DNA from: Saccharicrinis sp.
Lineage (GTDB): Bacteria; Bacteroidota; Bacteroidia; Bacteroidales; Marinilabiliaceae
DNA length: 32,733 nucleotides
Assembly (NCBI GenBank): GCA_024635585.1
Contig: JAGXIP010000215.1
Coordinates: 1-32,733, forward strand
Direction of reading: 5' to 3'
Shown in pieces: positions 2,223-8,571 of the stretch; the first letter of the stretch is position 1; each line of letters opens with the position of its first letter. The notes under the pieces were generated by a model. It was not told the origin of the DNA. It ran no database searches and saw only the letters and a program-made list of their open reading frames with translations. The translations under genes and the position numbers were made by a program.

Positions 2223-3113
2223 ATGACGGAGAGATGTGTATTTATCCTACTCATCTTAGCACTTGGTATGGGCACGCTCAATTCACAGGATAAATATCCT
2301 GTGCGAGGTAGTGTGTTTGTTAGGGAAGGAAAGGCTTCAAAGGTCAGCTTAACTATTTTACTCGAGCAAAAAACAACACGGATTCCCGTGGATATTGACG
2401 GGAATTTTACAACTTATTTGCATTGGAATAAAAATTATCAATTTTATTTTTCAAAGCCGGGTTACGTCGGGAAGAAAATCAATTTTTCGACCGTCGTACC
2501 CGGCCATGTTGAAAAAAAATATATCTATCCCTACGAAATATTGGTGGAGTTATTTCCCACCTTTCCCAATGCCGACACTACTTTTTTTAAAAATCCGGTG
2601 GCTAAAATTGCCTATTCAAACAAAATAAATGACTTTGAATACGATTTGGATTACCTGTTGATAGTAAAAGAAAAAATCAACTCATTTAAAAATCAATATT
2701 ATGCTTGGCGTAAGCAAGCTGTTCCCCCAAAAACGCTTACAAATAATAGTATCACAAAAACGCAGGAAGCAACAGCACTTCATTATCAAAAAAATGTAGA
2801 AACAAAAAATCCCAAAACGTCCACTCCGGCTCAATCAAAAGTAACGCATAATATAAAAGTACCTGTTATTGATAAAAAGAACCAGTTTGGATTGCCTCCC
2901 TTAAAAAAGTCTTATTCAGATGGGAAATTTATTGAGGTATATCCCTTAAATGCTAAGGTAATTACTCGCGTAGTGATAAAAAATGGGGTCTATCAAAAAG
3001 TATTTTATAAAGTTGAACACAATTGGGGCGGACGGTATTATTTTGTAGAGGAATCACCGGGGTATTACCGAAGTATTTCAAAATATAACTTCGAAAAGGC
3101 TACAAAAAGTTAA
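2223..3113 (+). CDS. Secreted protein of unknown function
   Basis: I do not recognise a characterised family. The 296-residue product begins with a signal peptide (MTERCVFILLILALGMGTLNSQ, cleavage probably near residue 22). Residues 23-100 form a short beta-rich domain (YPVRGSVFVREGKASKVSLT) resembling the small carboxypeptidase-regulatory/PEGA-like domains common in Bacteroidota exported proteins, including the typical 'KPGYVGKKINFST' segment. A Lys/Thr/Pro/Gln-rich linker (about residues 165-225) leads to a C-terminal segment with many Tyr and aromatic residues (WGGRYYFVEESPGYYR). It is therefore probably periplasmic or on the outer membrane. It lies 34 bases after the Usp gene and is followed by the thr operon leader, from which it is separated by its own 70-base spacer. 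Confidence 0.75.
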   Translation: MTERCVFILLILALGMGTLNSQDKYPVRGSVFVREGKASKVSLTILLEQKTTRIPVDIDGNFTTYLHWNKNYQFYFSKPGYVGKKINFSTVVPGHVEKKYIYPYEILVELFPTFPNADTTFFKNPVAKIAYSNKINDFEYDLDYLLIVKEKINSFKNQYYAWRKQAVPPKTLTNNSITKTQEATALHYQKNVETKNPKTSTPAQSKVTHNIKVPVIDKKNQFGLPPLKKSYSDGKFIEVYPLNAKVITRVVIKNGVYQKVFYKVEHNWGGRYYFVEESPGYYRSISKYNFEKATKS

Positions 3114-3161
3114 AACAATCCCTTGTTCTGCATTAAATGCATGGTATAAATCATCCTTTAT

Positions 3162-3191
3162 TTTGAAAATTTAAATAAATGTCTATTTTTG
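3162..3191 (+). promoter_or_regulatory. Bacteroidota-type promoter of the thr operon
   Basis: TTTG at 3162-3165 (-33 element) and TATTTTTG at 3184-3191 (a perfect TAnnTTTG -7 element) are separated by 18 bases. Transcription would begin near 3197-3199, about 30 bases before the leader-peptide start codon at 3227. The match to the published Bacteroides primary-sigma consensus is direct; activity is inferred. Confidence 0.7.
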
Positions 3192-3226
3192 CATTATAGT
3201 TTATAAGAAAAACACAATAATAGCTT

Positions 3227-3295
3227 ATGATTTGCAAATTACGCTATACCGTCACCATCGTTACCTCTACTACTATTACCCCTGGGGGGGTCTAA
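3227..3295 (+). CDS. thrL: Threonine operon leader peptide
   Basis: A 22-codon reading frame from ATG (3227) to TAA (3293-3295). Residues 8-18 read TVTIVTSTTIT: six Thr, two Ile and two Val in eleven codons, after a basic MICKLRY start, and before PGGV. The composition and position match threonine-operon leader peptides such as E. coli ThrL, whose Thr and Ile codons make ribosome stalling report on charged tRNA-Thr and tRNA-Ile. It lies about 30 bases after a predicted transcription start and 194 bases before thrA, with GC-rich complementary runs just downstream. A run of seven G (3284-3290) overlaps the last codons; if one G were a sequencing error the Thr-rich part would not change. Function is inferred from composition and context, but I consider it strong. 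Confidence 0.85.
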   Translation: MICKLRYTVTIVTSTTITPGGV

Positions 3296-3358
3296 CTAAT
3301 ATTCTTCCGCATTCAGGTTGTCATACGTATGGTTTGATGTAACCCGAAACCCCCTTTT
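3284..3358 (+). promoter_or_regulatory. Candidate thr attenuator (competing G-run/C-run structures and terminator)
   Basis: A G7T run at 3284-3291, overlapping the end of the leader peptide, is complementary to ACCCCC at 3349-3354, which is followed directly by TTTT (3355-3358). Between them GGTT (3316-3319) can pair with AACC (3341-3344), CATACGTATG (3322-3331) is self-complementary, and GGTTT (3331-3335) can pair with AAACC (3347-3351) next to the T run. These are mutually exclusive options of the kind expected for translation-coupled attenuation. Which form terminates cannot be decided by eye. Confidence 0.6.
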
Positions 3359-3488
3359 CTGAATAAAAAATTATCAGGAATAGCATTGTGCCTTATTTAC
3401 GTTATTTATAACAGAAACGATAAATATAAATCACTCAAAACTAAGACGTTTAATTCGCATCCATAATAGTAAATATATTAGCATTGGT

Positions 3489-5921
3489 ATGAAGGTATTA
3501 AAATTTGGAGGAACATCTGTAGGTTCCTCAGATAGCATCCTATTAGTAAAAAGAATTGTAGAAACAGAGCAAGAGCAAGTTATTGTTGTAGTTTCTGCTG
3601 TGGGCGGTGTAACCGATGCACTAATCCGAGCTGCCGAATTGGCTGAGCAAGGCAACCAAGAGTGTTTTGATGTTTATAGCGAAATAAAGGAAAAGCACTA
3701 TAAAATAATAAGTGAACTGTTCCCGCTAAATAAAGCCCGCAACATAAAATTTAAAGTCGATCAACTTTTTGATGAACTTAGTACCATTATTAAAGGTGTG
3801 TTCATGCTTAAAGAGATGACCAATAAAAGTAAGGCCATTATCTCGAGCTTTGGCGAAAGGATATCGTCCTTTATTATTTCCGAAGTAATTGTCGATGCCT
3901 CACTAATTGAGTCGCAAAACTTTATTATTACCGACAAAGTTTTCGGTAAGGAAGCTGTTAATATTGAATTAACAGAAAAAAATCTAAACAATATTAAAGA
4001 TAGTTTGGGTAAGGTCAGTGTTTTTCCTGGGTTTATTGCCTCTAACCAAAAAAATGAGATAACCACACTAGGTCGGGGCGGATCGGATTATACCGCAGCT
4101 ATAATTGCCGCTACCTATGATGCTTCCATACTAGAAATATGGACAGATGTGAACGGTTTTATGACTGCCGATCCAAAAATTATAAGCCGTGCCTATTGTA
4201 TAGATAGCCTTACATACTCCGAGGCCATGGAACTTTCACATTTTGGGGCTAAGGTTATTTTTCCACCCACCATATTGCCGGTTTATAAAAAAAATATTCC
4301 CATCCGTATTAAAAACACGTTTAATCCCGATGCTGTAGGTACTTTAATTAGTAATCAAGCATTGGCTGTGAACGGTAAAAAAATCAAGGGTATTTCTTCC
4401 ATTAAGGATGTTTCGTTGCTTACGGTTCAGGGTATTGGTATGATTGGTGTTACAGGCATTGCAATGCGCCTGTTTAAATCATTGGCACAAAAAGATATCA
4501 ATGTGATTCTTATTTCACAGGCTTCTTCCGAAAACTCCATCAGCGTGGTTATTGACACACATGCCGCCGAGAGTGCCGTTGATATGGTGAAGTTGGAATT
4601 TGCACCCGAAATAGCCCTAAATCAAATTAATAATATATCTGTAGAAACAGATATGGCCATTATCGCCATTGTAGGTGAAAACATGAAACGCACAACAGGA
4701 ATCTCCGGAACACTGTTTGAAAGCATGGGGAAAAATGGCATCAATATTTTTGCCATTGCACAGGGAGCTTCAGAGCTAAATATCTCTTTTGTGGTAAAAG
4801 ATAAGGATCTTAAAAAAGGGCTCAATGCAGCACACGAAGCTTTCTTCCTTTCACAGTTTGCTGTGGTCAATTTGTTTTTGGTGGGTACAGGTACCGTAGG
4901 TAAAATGTTGATTGAAAAAATTATAGCACAAACCGAAAAACTTGCCGAGTATAACAAACTTAAAATCAGAGTAGCTGGGATTACAAACAGCCGTAAAATG
5001 TTGCTCGATCCACAAGGTTTAAATGTAAAAACACTTTTTGAAGATTTACCAGAGAAAGGTGAGAAGGCTCACATGGAGGTGTTTAAGGGACATATCATAC
5101 AATATAACTTAGCGAACAGTGTATTGGTAGATTGTACGGCCAATGCTGACATAGCATCGGTTTACCAAAGCATGTTAGAATCTAACGTATCGGTAGTTAC
5201 TGCCAACAAAATAGCGAGTTCCTCAGCATTTGTGCTGTACCAAAAACTTAAATCAACCGCACTAAATAAAGGTGTTAAGTTTTTATTCGAAACAAACGTG
5301 GGAGCAGGGTTGCCAATTATTGCACCATTGAACAGCATGGTGATGAGTGGTGATAAAATTTTAAAGCTGGAGGCAGTACTTTCGGGCAGTTTAAATTTTA
5401 TCGTAAACACGGTGAGCCAAAACAATTCTTTGTCTACTGTTATTCAGGAGGCCAGAGATAAGGGTTTTACCGAACCCGATCCAAGGTTAGACCTAAGCGG
5501 TATTGATGTTGTTCGAAAAATTTTAATTCTGGCTCGGGAGTCTGGCTATGCCATGGAGCAAAGCGATATCGAAGTCACACCATTTGTTCCGCAAAAATAT
5601 ATGGATGCGGATAGCATAGAGCAATTTATGGATAACATAAAACAATATGATGTGGACTTTGAAGAATACCGTAAAACATTGGTAGCGAAGGGAAAAAAGC
5701 TGAGGTACGCTGCTAAACTCGAAAACGGAAAAGCTTCCGTAGGTTTTATTGAGGTAGATAGTCAACATCCTTTTTACGATTTGGAAGGCAGCAACAATAT
5801 CATTTTAATCAATTCGGAGCATTACAAGGAACACCCCATGCAAATTAAAGGCTACGGAGCTGGTGCCGAGGTTACTGCCGCAGGCGTTTTTGGCGACATC
5901 ATTAAAGTAGCCAATCAGTAA
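3489..5921 (+). CDS. thrA: Bifunctional aspartokinase / homoserine dehydrogenase
   Basis: The 810-residue product phosphorylates aspartate (first step of the Thr, Met and Lys branch) and reduces aspartate semialdehyde to homoserine. Residues 1-290 are the aspartokinase domain, with the N-terminal signature KFGGTSVGS and the segment TTLGRGGSDYTAA. Residues about 310-460 carry two ACT-type regulatory units (VQGIGMIGVTGIAMRLF and VGENMKRTTGISGTLFESM), the usual site of threonine feedback. Residues 462-810 are homoserine dehydrogenase, with the NAD(P) loop VGTGTVG at 465-471, the VDCTANADIASVYQ region, NVGAGLPIIAPLN and the GSLNFI segment. Length is close to E. coli ThrA (820). It is the first structural gene of the thr operon, 126 bases before the mutase-like gene, and is expected to be under leader-peptide attenuation. 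Confidence 0.97.
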   Translation: MKVLKFGGTSVGSSDSILLVKRIVETEQEQVIVVVSAVGGVTDALIRAAELAEQGNQECFDVYSEIKEKHYKIISELFPLNKARNIKFKVDQLFDELSTIIKGVFMLKEMTNKSKAIISSFGERISSFIISEVIVDASLIESQNFIITDKVFGKEAVNIELTEKNLNNIKDSLGKVSVFPGFIASNQKNEITTLGRGGSDYTAAIIAATYDASILEIWTDVNGFMTADPKIISRAYCIDSLTYSEAMELSHFGAKVIFPPTILPVYKKNIPIRIKNTFNPDAVGTLISNQALAVNGKKIKGISSIKDVSLLTVQGIGMIGVTGIAMRLFKSLAQKDINVILISQASSENSISVVIDTHAAESAVDMVKLEFAPEIALNQINNISVETDMAIIAIVGENMKRTTGISGTLFESMGKNGINIFAIAQGASELNISFVVKDKDLKKGLNAAHEAFFLSQFAVVNLFLVGTGTVGKMLIEKIIAQTEKLAEYNKLKIRVAGITNSRKMLLDPQGLNVKTLFEDLPEKGEKAHMEVFKGHIIQYNLANSVLVDCTANADIASVYQSMLESNVSVVTANKIASSSAFVLYQKLKSTALNKGVKFLFETNVGAGLPIIAPLNSMVMSGDKILKLEAVLSGSLNFIVNTVSQNNSLSTVIQEARDKGFTEPDPRLDLSGIDVVRKILILARESGYAMEQSDIEVTPFVPQKYMDADSIEQFMDNIKQYDVDFEEYRKTLVAKGKKLRYAAKLENGKASVGFIEVDSQHPFYDLEGSNNIILINSEHYKEHPMQIKGYGAGAEVTAAGVFGDIIKVANQ

Positions 5922-6048: not shown

Positions 6049-7254
6049 ATGAAATACTTAGTTATATTAGCAGATGGGGCTTCTGATGAACCCATCAAAG
6101 AATTAGGAAATAAAACACCATTGATGGCTGCCCATACGCCTTACATAGATAAATTGTGCTCCGAAGCAGTTTCGGGCCTTTTGGATACAGTTCCACCCTC
6201 ATTGCATCCCGGTAGCGAGGTGGCCAATATGATGGTGATGGGATATGATGCCGCCAAATATTACCGAGGCCGCGGCGTGCTCGAAGCTGCATCGATGGGA
6301 GTGAAGACCTCACTTTCCGATTTAGTGTTCCGGTGCAACTTGATATCCCTAAAGGATCAAAAAATATTGAATCATTCAGCTGGGCATATTTCAACACCAG
6401 AAGCCAAAGAATTAATGCTTTATTTGCAGGATAAACTAGGCTCGGAGAAAGTGAGTTTTTATCCTGGCGTAAGCTATCGCCATTTAATGGTACTGGGTGG
6501 TGGAAGCGACAAGTTAAATTGTACACCTCCTCACGACGTTACAGGTGTGCCTTTTAAAGATGTGATGCCAACAATCCAAGAAAAAGTTGCTCAGGATACT
6601 GTGGATATAGTAAGCGATTTGATGCTAAAATCAATTGAATTACTTAAAGACCATCCAGTTAATGTTAAAAGGAGAGCGGCCGGAAAACCTACTGCCGACA
6701 TGATATGGCCTTGGTCAGCGGGAAACACACCCGACATGCCTACGCTAAAAGAAATGTATGGAATTGAATCAGGTGTGGTTATCTCAGCGGTGGATTTGAT
6801 ATATGGTCTGGGTGCTTATGCAGGCCTCAAAGGTATGCATGTGGAAGGCTCAACAGGACTTTACGATACCAATTACGAAGGCAAAGCACAAGCAGCTATC
6901 GAGGCACTAAAGGAAAATCAGTACGTATTCCTGCATATCGAGGCTAGCGACGAAGCAGGGCACGAAGGTGATTATGTGCTTAAAACCAAAACAATAGAGT
7001 ATTTGGATCAAAGGGTGGTTAAATATTTAGTCGAAGAAATTGAGAAGATGGACGAGCCTGTTACCATTGCTTTACTTCCCGATCATCCTACTCCTTGCGC
7101 CCTCAAAACACACACCAGGGATGCCGTTCCATTTTTCATTAAAAAACCGGGTCAACAACCAGATGGGGTAATGCAGTACGACGAAGAATCGGCCAAAGCA
7201 GGTAGGTATGGAAGAATATACGGAACTGAGTTTATGCAGGAACTGTTGAAGTGA
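6049..7254 (+). CDS. apgM: Phosphoglycerate-mutase-like enzyme (ApgM family), probable homoserine kinase of the thr operon
   Basis: A 401-residue member of the alkaline-phosphatase superfamily, closest in appearance to archaeal-type cofactor-independent phosphoglycerate mutase. Metal and phosphoryl-transfer residues are visible: Asp9 (LADGASD), Ser56 (HPGSEVAN), Asp301 and His305 (ASDEAGH), Asp345-His346 (LPDHPTP) and His355 (KTHTRD). By sequence alone the call would be phosphoglycerate mutase. Context argues otherwise: it lies between thrA and thrC, 18 bases before thrC, exactly where thrB is expected, and no GHMP-type homoserine kinase is in the operon. I recall that related proteins of Bacteroides and Desulfovibrio have been assigned as the missing homoserine kinase from mutant-fitness data. 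I therefore favour homoserine O-phosphorylation, but the activity is inference from position and family. Confidence 0.8.
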   Translation: MKYLVILADGASDEPIKELGNKTPLMAAHTPYIDKLCSEAVSGLLDTVPPSLHPGSEVANMMVMGYDAAKYYRGRGVLEAASMGVKTSLSDLVFRCNLISLKDQKILNHSAGHISTPEAKELMLYLQDKLGSEKVSFYPGVSYRHLMVLGGGSDKLNCTPPHDVTGVPFKDVMPTIQEKVAQDTVDIVSDLMLKSIELLKDHPVNVKRRAAGKPTADMIWPWSAGNTPDMPTLKEMYGIESGVVISAVDLIYGLGAYAGLKGMHVEGSTGLYDTNYEGKAQAAIEALKENQYVFLHIEASDEAGHEGDYVLKTKTIEYLDQRVVKYLVEEIEKMDEPVTIALLPDHPTPCALKTHTRDAVPFFIKKPGQQPDGVMQYDEESAKAGRYGRIYGTEFMQELLK

Positions 7255-7272: not shown

Positions 7273-8571
7273 ATGATGCAATATTACAGCACCAATTCAC
7301 CAGATACAAAAGTAAGTCTTAAAGAGGCTGTACTTCGGGGGCTTGCACCCGATAAAGGGTTGTACATGCCTGAAACCATCCCCACGTTGGATGCGTCTTT
7401 CTTTGCAAACATAGGCCAAAAATCGCTACCCGAAATTGGTTTTGAAGTGCTCAAGCCCTTCTTTTGCCCTGATATACCCGAGGAAACTTTTAAAACAATT
7501 GTACAAGAGTCGCTTAACTTCGATATTCCCACGGTTAAGGTGAATAACAATATTTACGCACTGGAACTTTTCCATGGCCCTACCTTGGCTTTTAAGGATG
7601 TAGGAGCTCGTTTTATGGCGCGTATATTATCCTATTTTGCCAAAGGTCGTAATGAGGAGATCAATGTTTTGGTGGCCACTTCCGGCGATACTGGAAGTGC
7701 CGTGGCCAATGGTTTTTACAAGGTGCCTGGGATTAAAGTACAGGTACTTTACCCAAAGGGAATGGTGAGCCAGGTGCAAGAAAAACAATTTACCACTTTG
7801 GGGCATAACATTACTTCATTGGAGGTGGAAGGTACTTTTGACGAATGCCAACGCATGGTTAAGGAAGCCTTTATGGATACTGAGCTGAACGAAAAACTAG
7901 TGCTCACCTCGGCTAACTCCATTAACTTGGCCCGTCTTTTACCACAATCTGTATATTATTACTATGCCTACGCACAAATGCAAAAGGCAGGCATTGCGGA
8001 CGATATTGTTTTTTGTGTGCCCAGTGGTAATTTCGGAAACATAACAGCTGGACTATTAACTCAAGCCATGGGACTTCCTATCAAACGTTTTATAGCCGCC
8101 ACTAATATCAATGATATAGTACCCCAATATTTGCAGACAGGGAATTATGTACCAGCACCTTCTAAAAGTACAGTAGCCAATGCGATGGATGTTGGCGATC
8201 CCAGTAATTTTGTGCGTATCCTCGATATTTTTGCTTCGGATCATAACCTGGTTAAGTCAAAAATCGAAGGTATTGCATTTACCGATGATGAAATCAAAGC
8301 AGGGGTGAGGCGTGTGGATAAATCCTTCGACTATGTCCTCGATCCACATGGTGCCACAGGTTATTTGGCTTTGGAGAAAATATTGCTAAACGATCAAATA
8401 GGAATTTTTCTGGAAACAGCGCATCCTGCCAAGTTTCCTGAAGTGATAGAACCCGCAATTGGCCGTAAGGTAGATGTGCCACTCAGGCTGCAAGCTTTTA
8501 TGAAAGGTGAAGCAAAAAACATAGCAATAAAGGCCAATTTATATGAGTTAAAACGATTTCTATTAAAATAG
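7273..8571 (+). CDS. thrC: Threonine synthase
   Basis: This PLP enzyme converts O-phosphohomoserine to threonine and phosphate, the last step of the pathway. The 432-residue length, the N-terminal YYSTNSPDTKVSLKEAVLRG (the usual opening of bacterial ThrC), the PLP-lysine motif HGPTLAFKDVGARF (Lys108) and the phosphate-binding ATSGDTGSAVANGF leave little doubt. The start could be 7273 or the adjacent ATG at 7276; the difference is one residue. It is the third structural gene of the thr operon, follows the mutase-like gene by 18 bases and is followed by a strong terminator, so the operon ends here. Confidence 0.97.
   Translation: MMQYYSTNSPDTKVSLKEAVLRGLAPDKGLYMPETIPTLDASFFANIGQKSLPEIGFEVLKPFFCPDIPEETFKTIVQESLNFDIPTVKVNNNIYALELFHGPTLAFKDVGARFMARILSYFAKGRNEEINVLVATSGDTGSAVANGFYKVPGIKVQVLYPKGMVSQVQEKQFTTLGHNITSLEVEGTFDECQRMVKEAFMDTELNEKLVLTSANSINLARLLPQSVYYYYAYAQMQKAGIADDIVFCVPSGNFGNITAGLLTQAMGLPIKRFIAATNINDIVPQYLQTGNYVPAPSKSTVANAMDVGDPSNFVRILDIFASDHNLVKSKIEGIAFTDDEIKAGVRRVDKSFDYVLDPHGATGYLALEKILLNDQIGIFLETAHPAKFPEVIEPAIGRKVDVPLRLQAFMKGEAKNIAIKANLYELKRFLLK

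Follow-up and report, generated by a model that had tools for sequence, protein, structure and literature searches.

A tiny, unannotated, Thr-codon-rich leader gene lies 5' of the threonine-making genes in the analysed DNA, and a GC-rich RNA hairpin, H1, stands at its end. We tentatively see in it a phylum-wide threonine leader of Bacteroidota with a design of its own. Its Thr codons lead into a constant C4/G4 hairpin, and the stop codon lies in this hairpin or next to it. In place of a terminator and antiterminator pair, it would be this hairpin that passes ribosome stalling on to a decision taken 5' of thrA, one that is not intrinsic and probably depends on Rho. The second sensed product (Ile or Met) would be swapped between lineages with the RNA part kept.

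The leader and the operon in the window

The window, that is the whole stretch of 32,733 nucleotides that was analysed, carries the following features.

3162 to 3191, + strand: promoter (TTTG at 3162-3165, 18 nt, TAttTTTG at 3184-3191)
3216 to 3223, + strand: possible 5' strand of helix P1, AATAATAG, read by eye and weak in the window
3227 to 3295, + strand: leader peptide gene, MICKLRYTVTIVTSTTITPGGV, which is proposed to sense charging with Thr (and Ile)
3278 to 3291, + strand: hairpin H1, ACCCC-UGGG-GGGGU, over the last Thr-Pro codons and immediately before the stop
3296 to 3303, + strand: possible 3' strand of P1, CTAATATT, read by eye
3315 to 3345, + strand: hairpin HP2, AGGT..ACC arms, variable in sequence, at a comparable position across the genus, not directly followed by a U-tract
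3350 to 3358, + strand: CCCCC-TTTT run, possible alternative partner of G7, lineage-specific
3489 to 5921, + strand: thrA, bifunctional aspartate kinase/homoserine dehydrogenase I (NF006959, 988 bits, cut-off 726)
6049 to 7254, + strand: proposed homoserine kinase of the phosphoglycerate mutase (PGM) type (TIGR02535, 516 bits, cut-off 446)
7273 to 8571, + strand: thrC, threonine synthase (TIGR00260, 299 bits, cut-off 167)

The family matches confirm the operon order given in the preliminary description, with thrA followed by a homoserine-kinase-type mutase gene and thrC; the gene at 6049-7254 also matches NF003242 (532 bits, cut-off 426). The frame at 3227-3295 has 22 codons with six Thr, three Ile and three Val, the same counts as described before, and no Trp codon. 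The GC runs are likewise present: C4 at 3279-3282, G7 at 3284-3290 and C5 at 3350-3354, followed by TTTT at 3355-3358. The predicted fold of 3200-3372 was not more stable than that of shuffled sequences (z = +0.51).

Bacteroidota promoters have a consensus of -33 and -7 elements, and the phylum is known for little use of Shine-Dalgarno sites. Judged against this consensus, both elements of the promoter at 3162-3191 match, and the transcript is expected to start a few bases 3' of it. TAnnTTTG was found 5' of 44 of the 54 related leaders (4.8 in shuffles), and both elements at a spacing of 17-20 nt were found in 26 of the 54 (0.1 in shuffles).

Conservation of the frame and the hairpin

The sources of ThrA relatives were the best 80 genome-contig loci, 60 family genomes, 149 order genomes (144 with some ThrA match and about 50 with full-length ThrA) and further upstream stretches. 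After 14 duplicates, three short rows (L022, L079, L139) and three unparsed rows (L161, L166, L177) were dropped, 158 non-redundant thrA upstream regions were left. In 53 of them, within 400 nt 5' of thrA, there is an ATG frame that is 10-45 codons long and has four or more Thr among its last 14 codons; the reverse strand gave two and mononucleotide shuffles 2.6. This count avoids the selection behind the first leader tables, in which Thr content helped to pick the frame and L030, L052, L077 and L193 were given their starts by hand. The pattern CCCC-N1-5-GGGG occurred in 55 of the 158 regions, and in 54 it lay at the end of a short frame; the one outside the 54, L042, has the C4/G4 match without a leader. 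Frame and hairpin were found together in 44 regions, the hairpin alone in 10, the frame alone in nine and neither in 95 (Fisher p 2e-20, with related genomes counted as independent, as in the other statistics over loci). Of 81 regions, from 80 loci plus the window, 25 contain ACCCC-N1-4-GGGG, and none does when read backwards.

All nine genomes of the genus carry the hairpin ACCCCTNGGGG about 145-290 nt 5' of thrA, and nine of the 17 matches to it in these genomes are those at thrA. The strict pattern ACCNNNACCCCTNGGGG, which misses most leader members including the window, gave two matches in the 149 order genomes, both immediately 5' of thrA. The distribution is patchy: 104 of the 158 upstream regions are outside the leader set, and a few, e.g. 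L068, have a shortened hairpin. Among the nine frames without the C4/G4 hairpin, L068 is the one with the shortened form, and six resemble the Thr-rich end of RecA; the gene preceding thrA in those six is presumably recA.

Many Prolixibacteraceae-type records have what we take to be recA directly 5' of thrA (L015, L016, L025, L033, L034, L060), and the RecA end is Thr-rich (e.g. ITGTTTE, ITTTTTVN) in the position where a Thr leader would be. In L170, the Thr leader frame MKHQLHTIITITTTRPQTS starts 157 nt 5' of thrA and has no C4/G4 hairpin; it is perhaps a different type of attenuator.

Like leader peptides in the broad sense, the frame is short, enriched in end-product codons and conserved in orthologous leaders. 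Thr, Ile and Met are all products of the pathway opened by thrA. Outside the fixed end, the leaders of the genus consist of 29% Thr and 18% Ile with Met at 0 of 140 residues, and the Bacteroidaceae leaders of 29% Thr and 25% Met (58 of 234), the background amino-acid frequencies being assumed values. We propose that the co-sensed amino acid differs by lineage, and that it would be Ile in the genus of the window and Met in Bacteroidaceae. Conservation of Thr codons in the relatives has an exception in L004, a member of the genus that kept H1 and has a single Thr codon; L006 has two. L004 and L006 speak against strict Thr sensing there. Amino-acid sensing by translation of the leader frame is very probable, and the frame itself, its codons and their conservation in relatives bear out the earlier reading, in which the thrA operon has a leader peptide for Thr and also Ile. 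A lack of conserved Thr codons in orthologous leaders had been named there as a refutation, and this did not come about.

The sequence ACCCC is invariant in an alignment of 50 sequences. The in-frame codons at H1 are ACC-CCT in 53 of the 54 leaders and ACC-CCC in L169. In all 54 the arms are C4/G4 or longer, and in variants such as L068, L234 and L235 they are C3 and G3 or G4. Of the 54, 38 are compatible with a C4-N4-G4 hairpin; nine leaders of the Bacteroidaceae type have CCCCTCGGGG as their run, from which A-CCC-CUCG-GGG-U can be formed. Between the intact C and G arms the loops vary (UUGG, UGGG, UAGG, UUAG, UGCG, UGUG, UCAC and others). The stop codon stands after H1 (TPWGV-stop, TPRG-stop) or inside its loop (TP-stop). 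In L068, L234 and L235 the Pro is replaced by Leu and the hairpin is retained, so the nucleotide hairpin rather than the peptide end seems to be conserved. The element common to the leaders seems to be an RNA hairpin of the form ACCCC-loop-GGGG that occupies the final Thr-Pro codons together with the stop. Covariation is uninformative for the pairing since the C and G arms hardly vary. We consider it probable that H1 forms as a hairpin in the RNA and that the ribosome reads it.

A covariance model (R1) was made that covers the hairpin and the final Thr codons; it rests on 50 of the 54 leaders, L006, L046, L052 and L077 being left out. With filters that lose weak matches, it matched in 46 of 395 phylum genomes at E 0.01. 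All 46 contexts were inspected: 41 are upstream of thrA, two of these (the window and G105) having contributed to the model, and five are elsewhere (L236, L240, L241, L242, L244; E 0.00157 to 0.00616). Among the families represented by matches at thrA are f122 and f123, from the same class, and, from another class, f141 with 11 genomes.

One of the 41, L226, has an open frame between the thr leader and thrA, which starts 720 nt on; the intervening frame presumably resembles the GxxExxY family. In L198-L225 and L227 (f123, f141), a block near ACATAT(C/A)(A/G)(T/C)C is conserved about 10-13 nt 3' of the hairpin, and family relatives such as L186 and L193 have a similar ATATCATC.

Output of the leader and competing explanations

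We prefer an explanation in which the leader frame is a ribosome-based Thr sensor, H1 reports the position of the ribosome and premature termination is the output; for the whole of it, we judge the balance to be even. The leader at 3227-3295 would sense charged tRNA-Thr and a second tRNA besides, which would be tRNA-Ile in the window and tRNA-Met in Bacteroidaceae. Under Thr shortage, the ribosome would stall on the Thr run and its leading edge would keep H1 open. When Thr is plentiful, it would reach the stop and depart, and H1 would close. The state of H1 would thus be the readout of ribosome position. The most likely output would be that transcription ends early, in the untranslated stretch from H1 to thrA, where release of the ribosome at H1 would expose a spacer with more C than G to Rho.

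The classical alternative is intrinsic attenuation, in which G7 (3284-3290) and C5 (3350-3354) before TTTT would form a terminator once the ribosome is gone, and a ribosome on the Thr codons would cover the G-run and block it. The preliminary description had likewise placed competing GC pairings ending at 3358. One part of this stands: G7 pairs with C5 in the minimum-energy fold of the window, with TTTT next to it, and C5 is kept in the closest relative, L008. As a general design it lacks support, since C5 is present in these two of the nine genus members and absent from seven, which also answers in the negative whether the downstream pairing is conserved. Over 92 loci, the downstream complementarity of the G-run showed no excess (-6.5 kcal/mol native, -6.8 shuffled). 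Sites with a hairpin and a U-tract between H1 and thrA were found in 13 of the 92 loci, with 11.3 expected (this set omits L226, and its L247 is the same locus as L121), and a second score gave 11 of 54, with 6.8 expected. A scan for local hairpins returned no terminator-like site in 3100-3600 of the window, where the U-tract is interrupted (TTTTCTG). The same terminator test was positive in four of four trp leaders of relatives (RF01692); these are a soft control, since three of the four are below the family cut-off and the model probably covers, and may favour, terminators. In L123, L101 and L158, the last Thr codons and H1 do form the 5' part of a terminator-like hairpin, directly followed by a T run of six in L123 and four in L101 and L158. 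Transcription attenuation by an intrinsic terminator was rejected as the general design because terminators are at background over the 92 loci, and we regard intrinsic attenuation as quite improbable. If the leader ribosome and the fold of H1, P1 and HP2 instead set thrA translation or mRNA stability, control would be post-transcriptional. The short distance from H1 to the thrA start (under 100 nt in 30 of 92 loci) and the support for P1 and HP2 in several clades would suit this. Against it, the thrA start is not paired with the leader beyond shuffles (5.0 pairs, 4.5 in shuffles, p 0.86) and its region is slightly more open overall (13.9 pairs, 14.8 in shuffles, p 0.004). A translational attenuator of the ermC type was rejected since the leader does not sequester the thrA start, and post-transcriptional control as such is unlikely.

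That H1 is a DNA operator of a thr regulator and not an RNA hairpin is suggested by its near-palindromic ACCCC..GGGGT, often just 5' of thrA. However, the arm spacing changes by single bases (T, TT, TTA, TCAC), and H1 lies 3' of the promoter and in phase with the leader end, with the Thr-Pro codons in frame in 54 of 54; we find an operator highly improbable. It would surprise us just as much if the Thr run and H1 had no regulatory role: the patchy distribution and the near absence of Thr codons in L004 would agree with that, but the elements are conserved over genera, families and classes with controls at background.

Rho-dependent termination is favoured by elimination of the other outputs, and it is likelier than intrinsic termination since, as a rule, no hairpin with a U-tract is present. 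The untranslated spacer from H1 to thrA is 57-288 nt long in the 92 loci. Its base content is 16.6% C and 12.3% G, compared with 15.5% C and 17.1% G upstream of thrA in the 104 regions without a leader (p 9e-8, related genomes counted as independent); the bias is weak, a Rho site would be expected to hold more C, and the G content of the controls may be raised by those whose ends lie in coding sequence. Rho is described as essential in B. thetaiotaomicron and as acting in mRNA leaders of bacteria generally (PMC13269538). A Rho-dependent output is possible, in our judgement somewhat short of probable.

Two further pairings were considered. P1 is an enclosing helix between the leader start and the bases after its stop. 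It was set aside in the window, as its pairing is not above shuffles there (4.1 pairs, 4.6 in shuffles) and another best pairing was computed. In L008 it has eight perfect pairs (p 0.06). Over the 54 loci, 10.4 pairs were found (7.3 in shuffles), and a second score gave 16.0 against 14.2 (combined p 0.0015); an initial test that left the duplexes unrestricted showed hardly any excess (p 0.04). In one family clade, CG, AU and UA occur at one position of P1, counted in nine hand-picked of 14 clade rows, two of the nine being unpaired at that position. For HP2, the mean z was -2.18 in the genus (n=9), -1.90 in Bacteroidaceae, -1.62 in Flavobacteriaceae-like loci and -1.00 in f141, and -0.5 in the window itself. 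Neither 23 other loci (-0.48) nor another family clade (+0.20) showed it, with controls without a leader at -0.69. The HP2 covariation count in f141 covers seven of 11 sequences; three longer hairpins and one copy of an identical pair are outside it. Both HP2 and, for certain clades, P1 appear to be conserved, and they count against the preferred explanation as elements without a settled role in it.

The Bacteroidaceae leaders L030, L037, L038, L043, L044, L046, L052 and L072 share a near-identical block after the leader, GGATAGTATAT..GTGTTTCTACGTGATACACGC..GTAAGC, with two possible hairpins and then usually a T-rich stretch; L067 and L069 are less alike.

Relation to known leaders

The enterobacterial thr leader (thrL), which we take to be the Rfam family Thr_leader (RF00506), is a short Thr/Ile-rich leader peptide directly 5' of the bifunctional thrA, and the leader described here has the same anatomy. 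In contrast to thrL, the Bacteroidota leaders have no conserved intrinsic terminator or competing (antiterminator) pairing, a C4/G4 hairpin is conserved on the last codons, Met replaces Ile in Bacteroidaceae and the second gene of the operon is a kinase of the PGM type. No Rfam family, Thr_leader and Bacteroid-trp included, matched the window at gathering score, and ten related leader loci searched at E up to 1 gave only weak, unrelated matches below it. Four leader peptides searched against Pfam and NCBIfam gave no match of note (one Pfam match at E 4.9).

The Bacteroid-trp RNA (RF01692) is also an amino-acid leader peptide (WWW) in the same phylum. At E 0.001, it matched in four of 41 genomes, one of them above cut-off; the window's own genome had no match, and one trp leader from its genus (L230) had a match below cut-off. 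All four trp leaders (L228-L231) have three consecutive Trp codons and a strong terminator with a U-tract, unlike the thr leaders as a set.

In Rho-dependent leader-peptide attenuators of the tnaC type, where the ribosome stands as a short frame ends determines whether transcription terminates downstream. The leader described here would resemble them in a decision made by ribosome position without a U-tract terminator, with the action of Rho as our proposal, and would differ from them in sensing charged tRNA and not a free ligand.

For F. psychrophilum, one paper gives strong clues for leader-peptide attenuation 5' of amino-acid operons (PMC9723704), which is the same kind of control of amino-acid biosynthesis operons in Bacteroidota. 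Its section on 5' cis-regulatory RNAs names pheA, hisG and others, and not thrA or a hairpin of this kind; the supplement of the paper may include thr. Passages of other papers mention leader-like short frames in B. thetaiotaomicron in general (PMC7366714), treat leader genes in general (PMC4833913) or list Bacteroid-trp among RNAs (PMC2864571). Among the matches listed in our literature search, there were general remarks on leader-peptide control and no paper on a Bacteroidota thr leader.

The leader is a previously unannotated control element for thrA across Bacteroidota. Amino-acid attenuation that does without an intrinsic terminator can be put to the test here, next to a trp leader of canonical appearance in the same genus, and the co-sensed amino acid, Ile or Met, would be a case of natural exchange.
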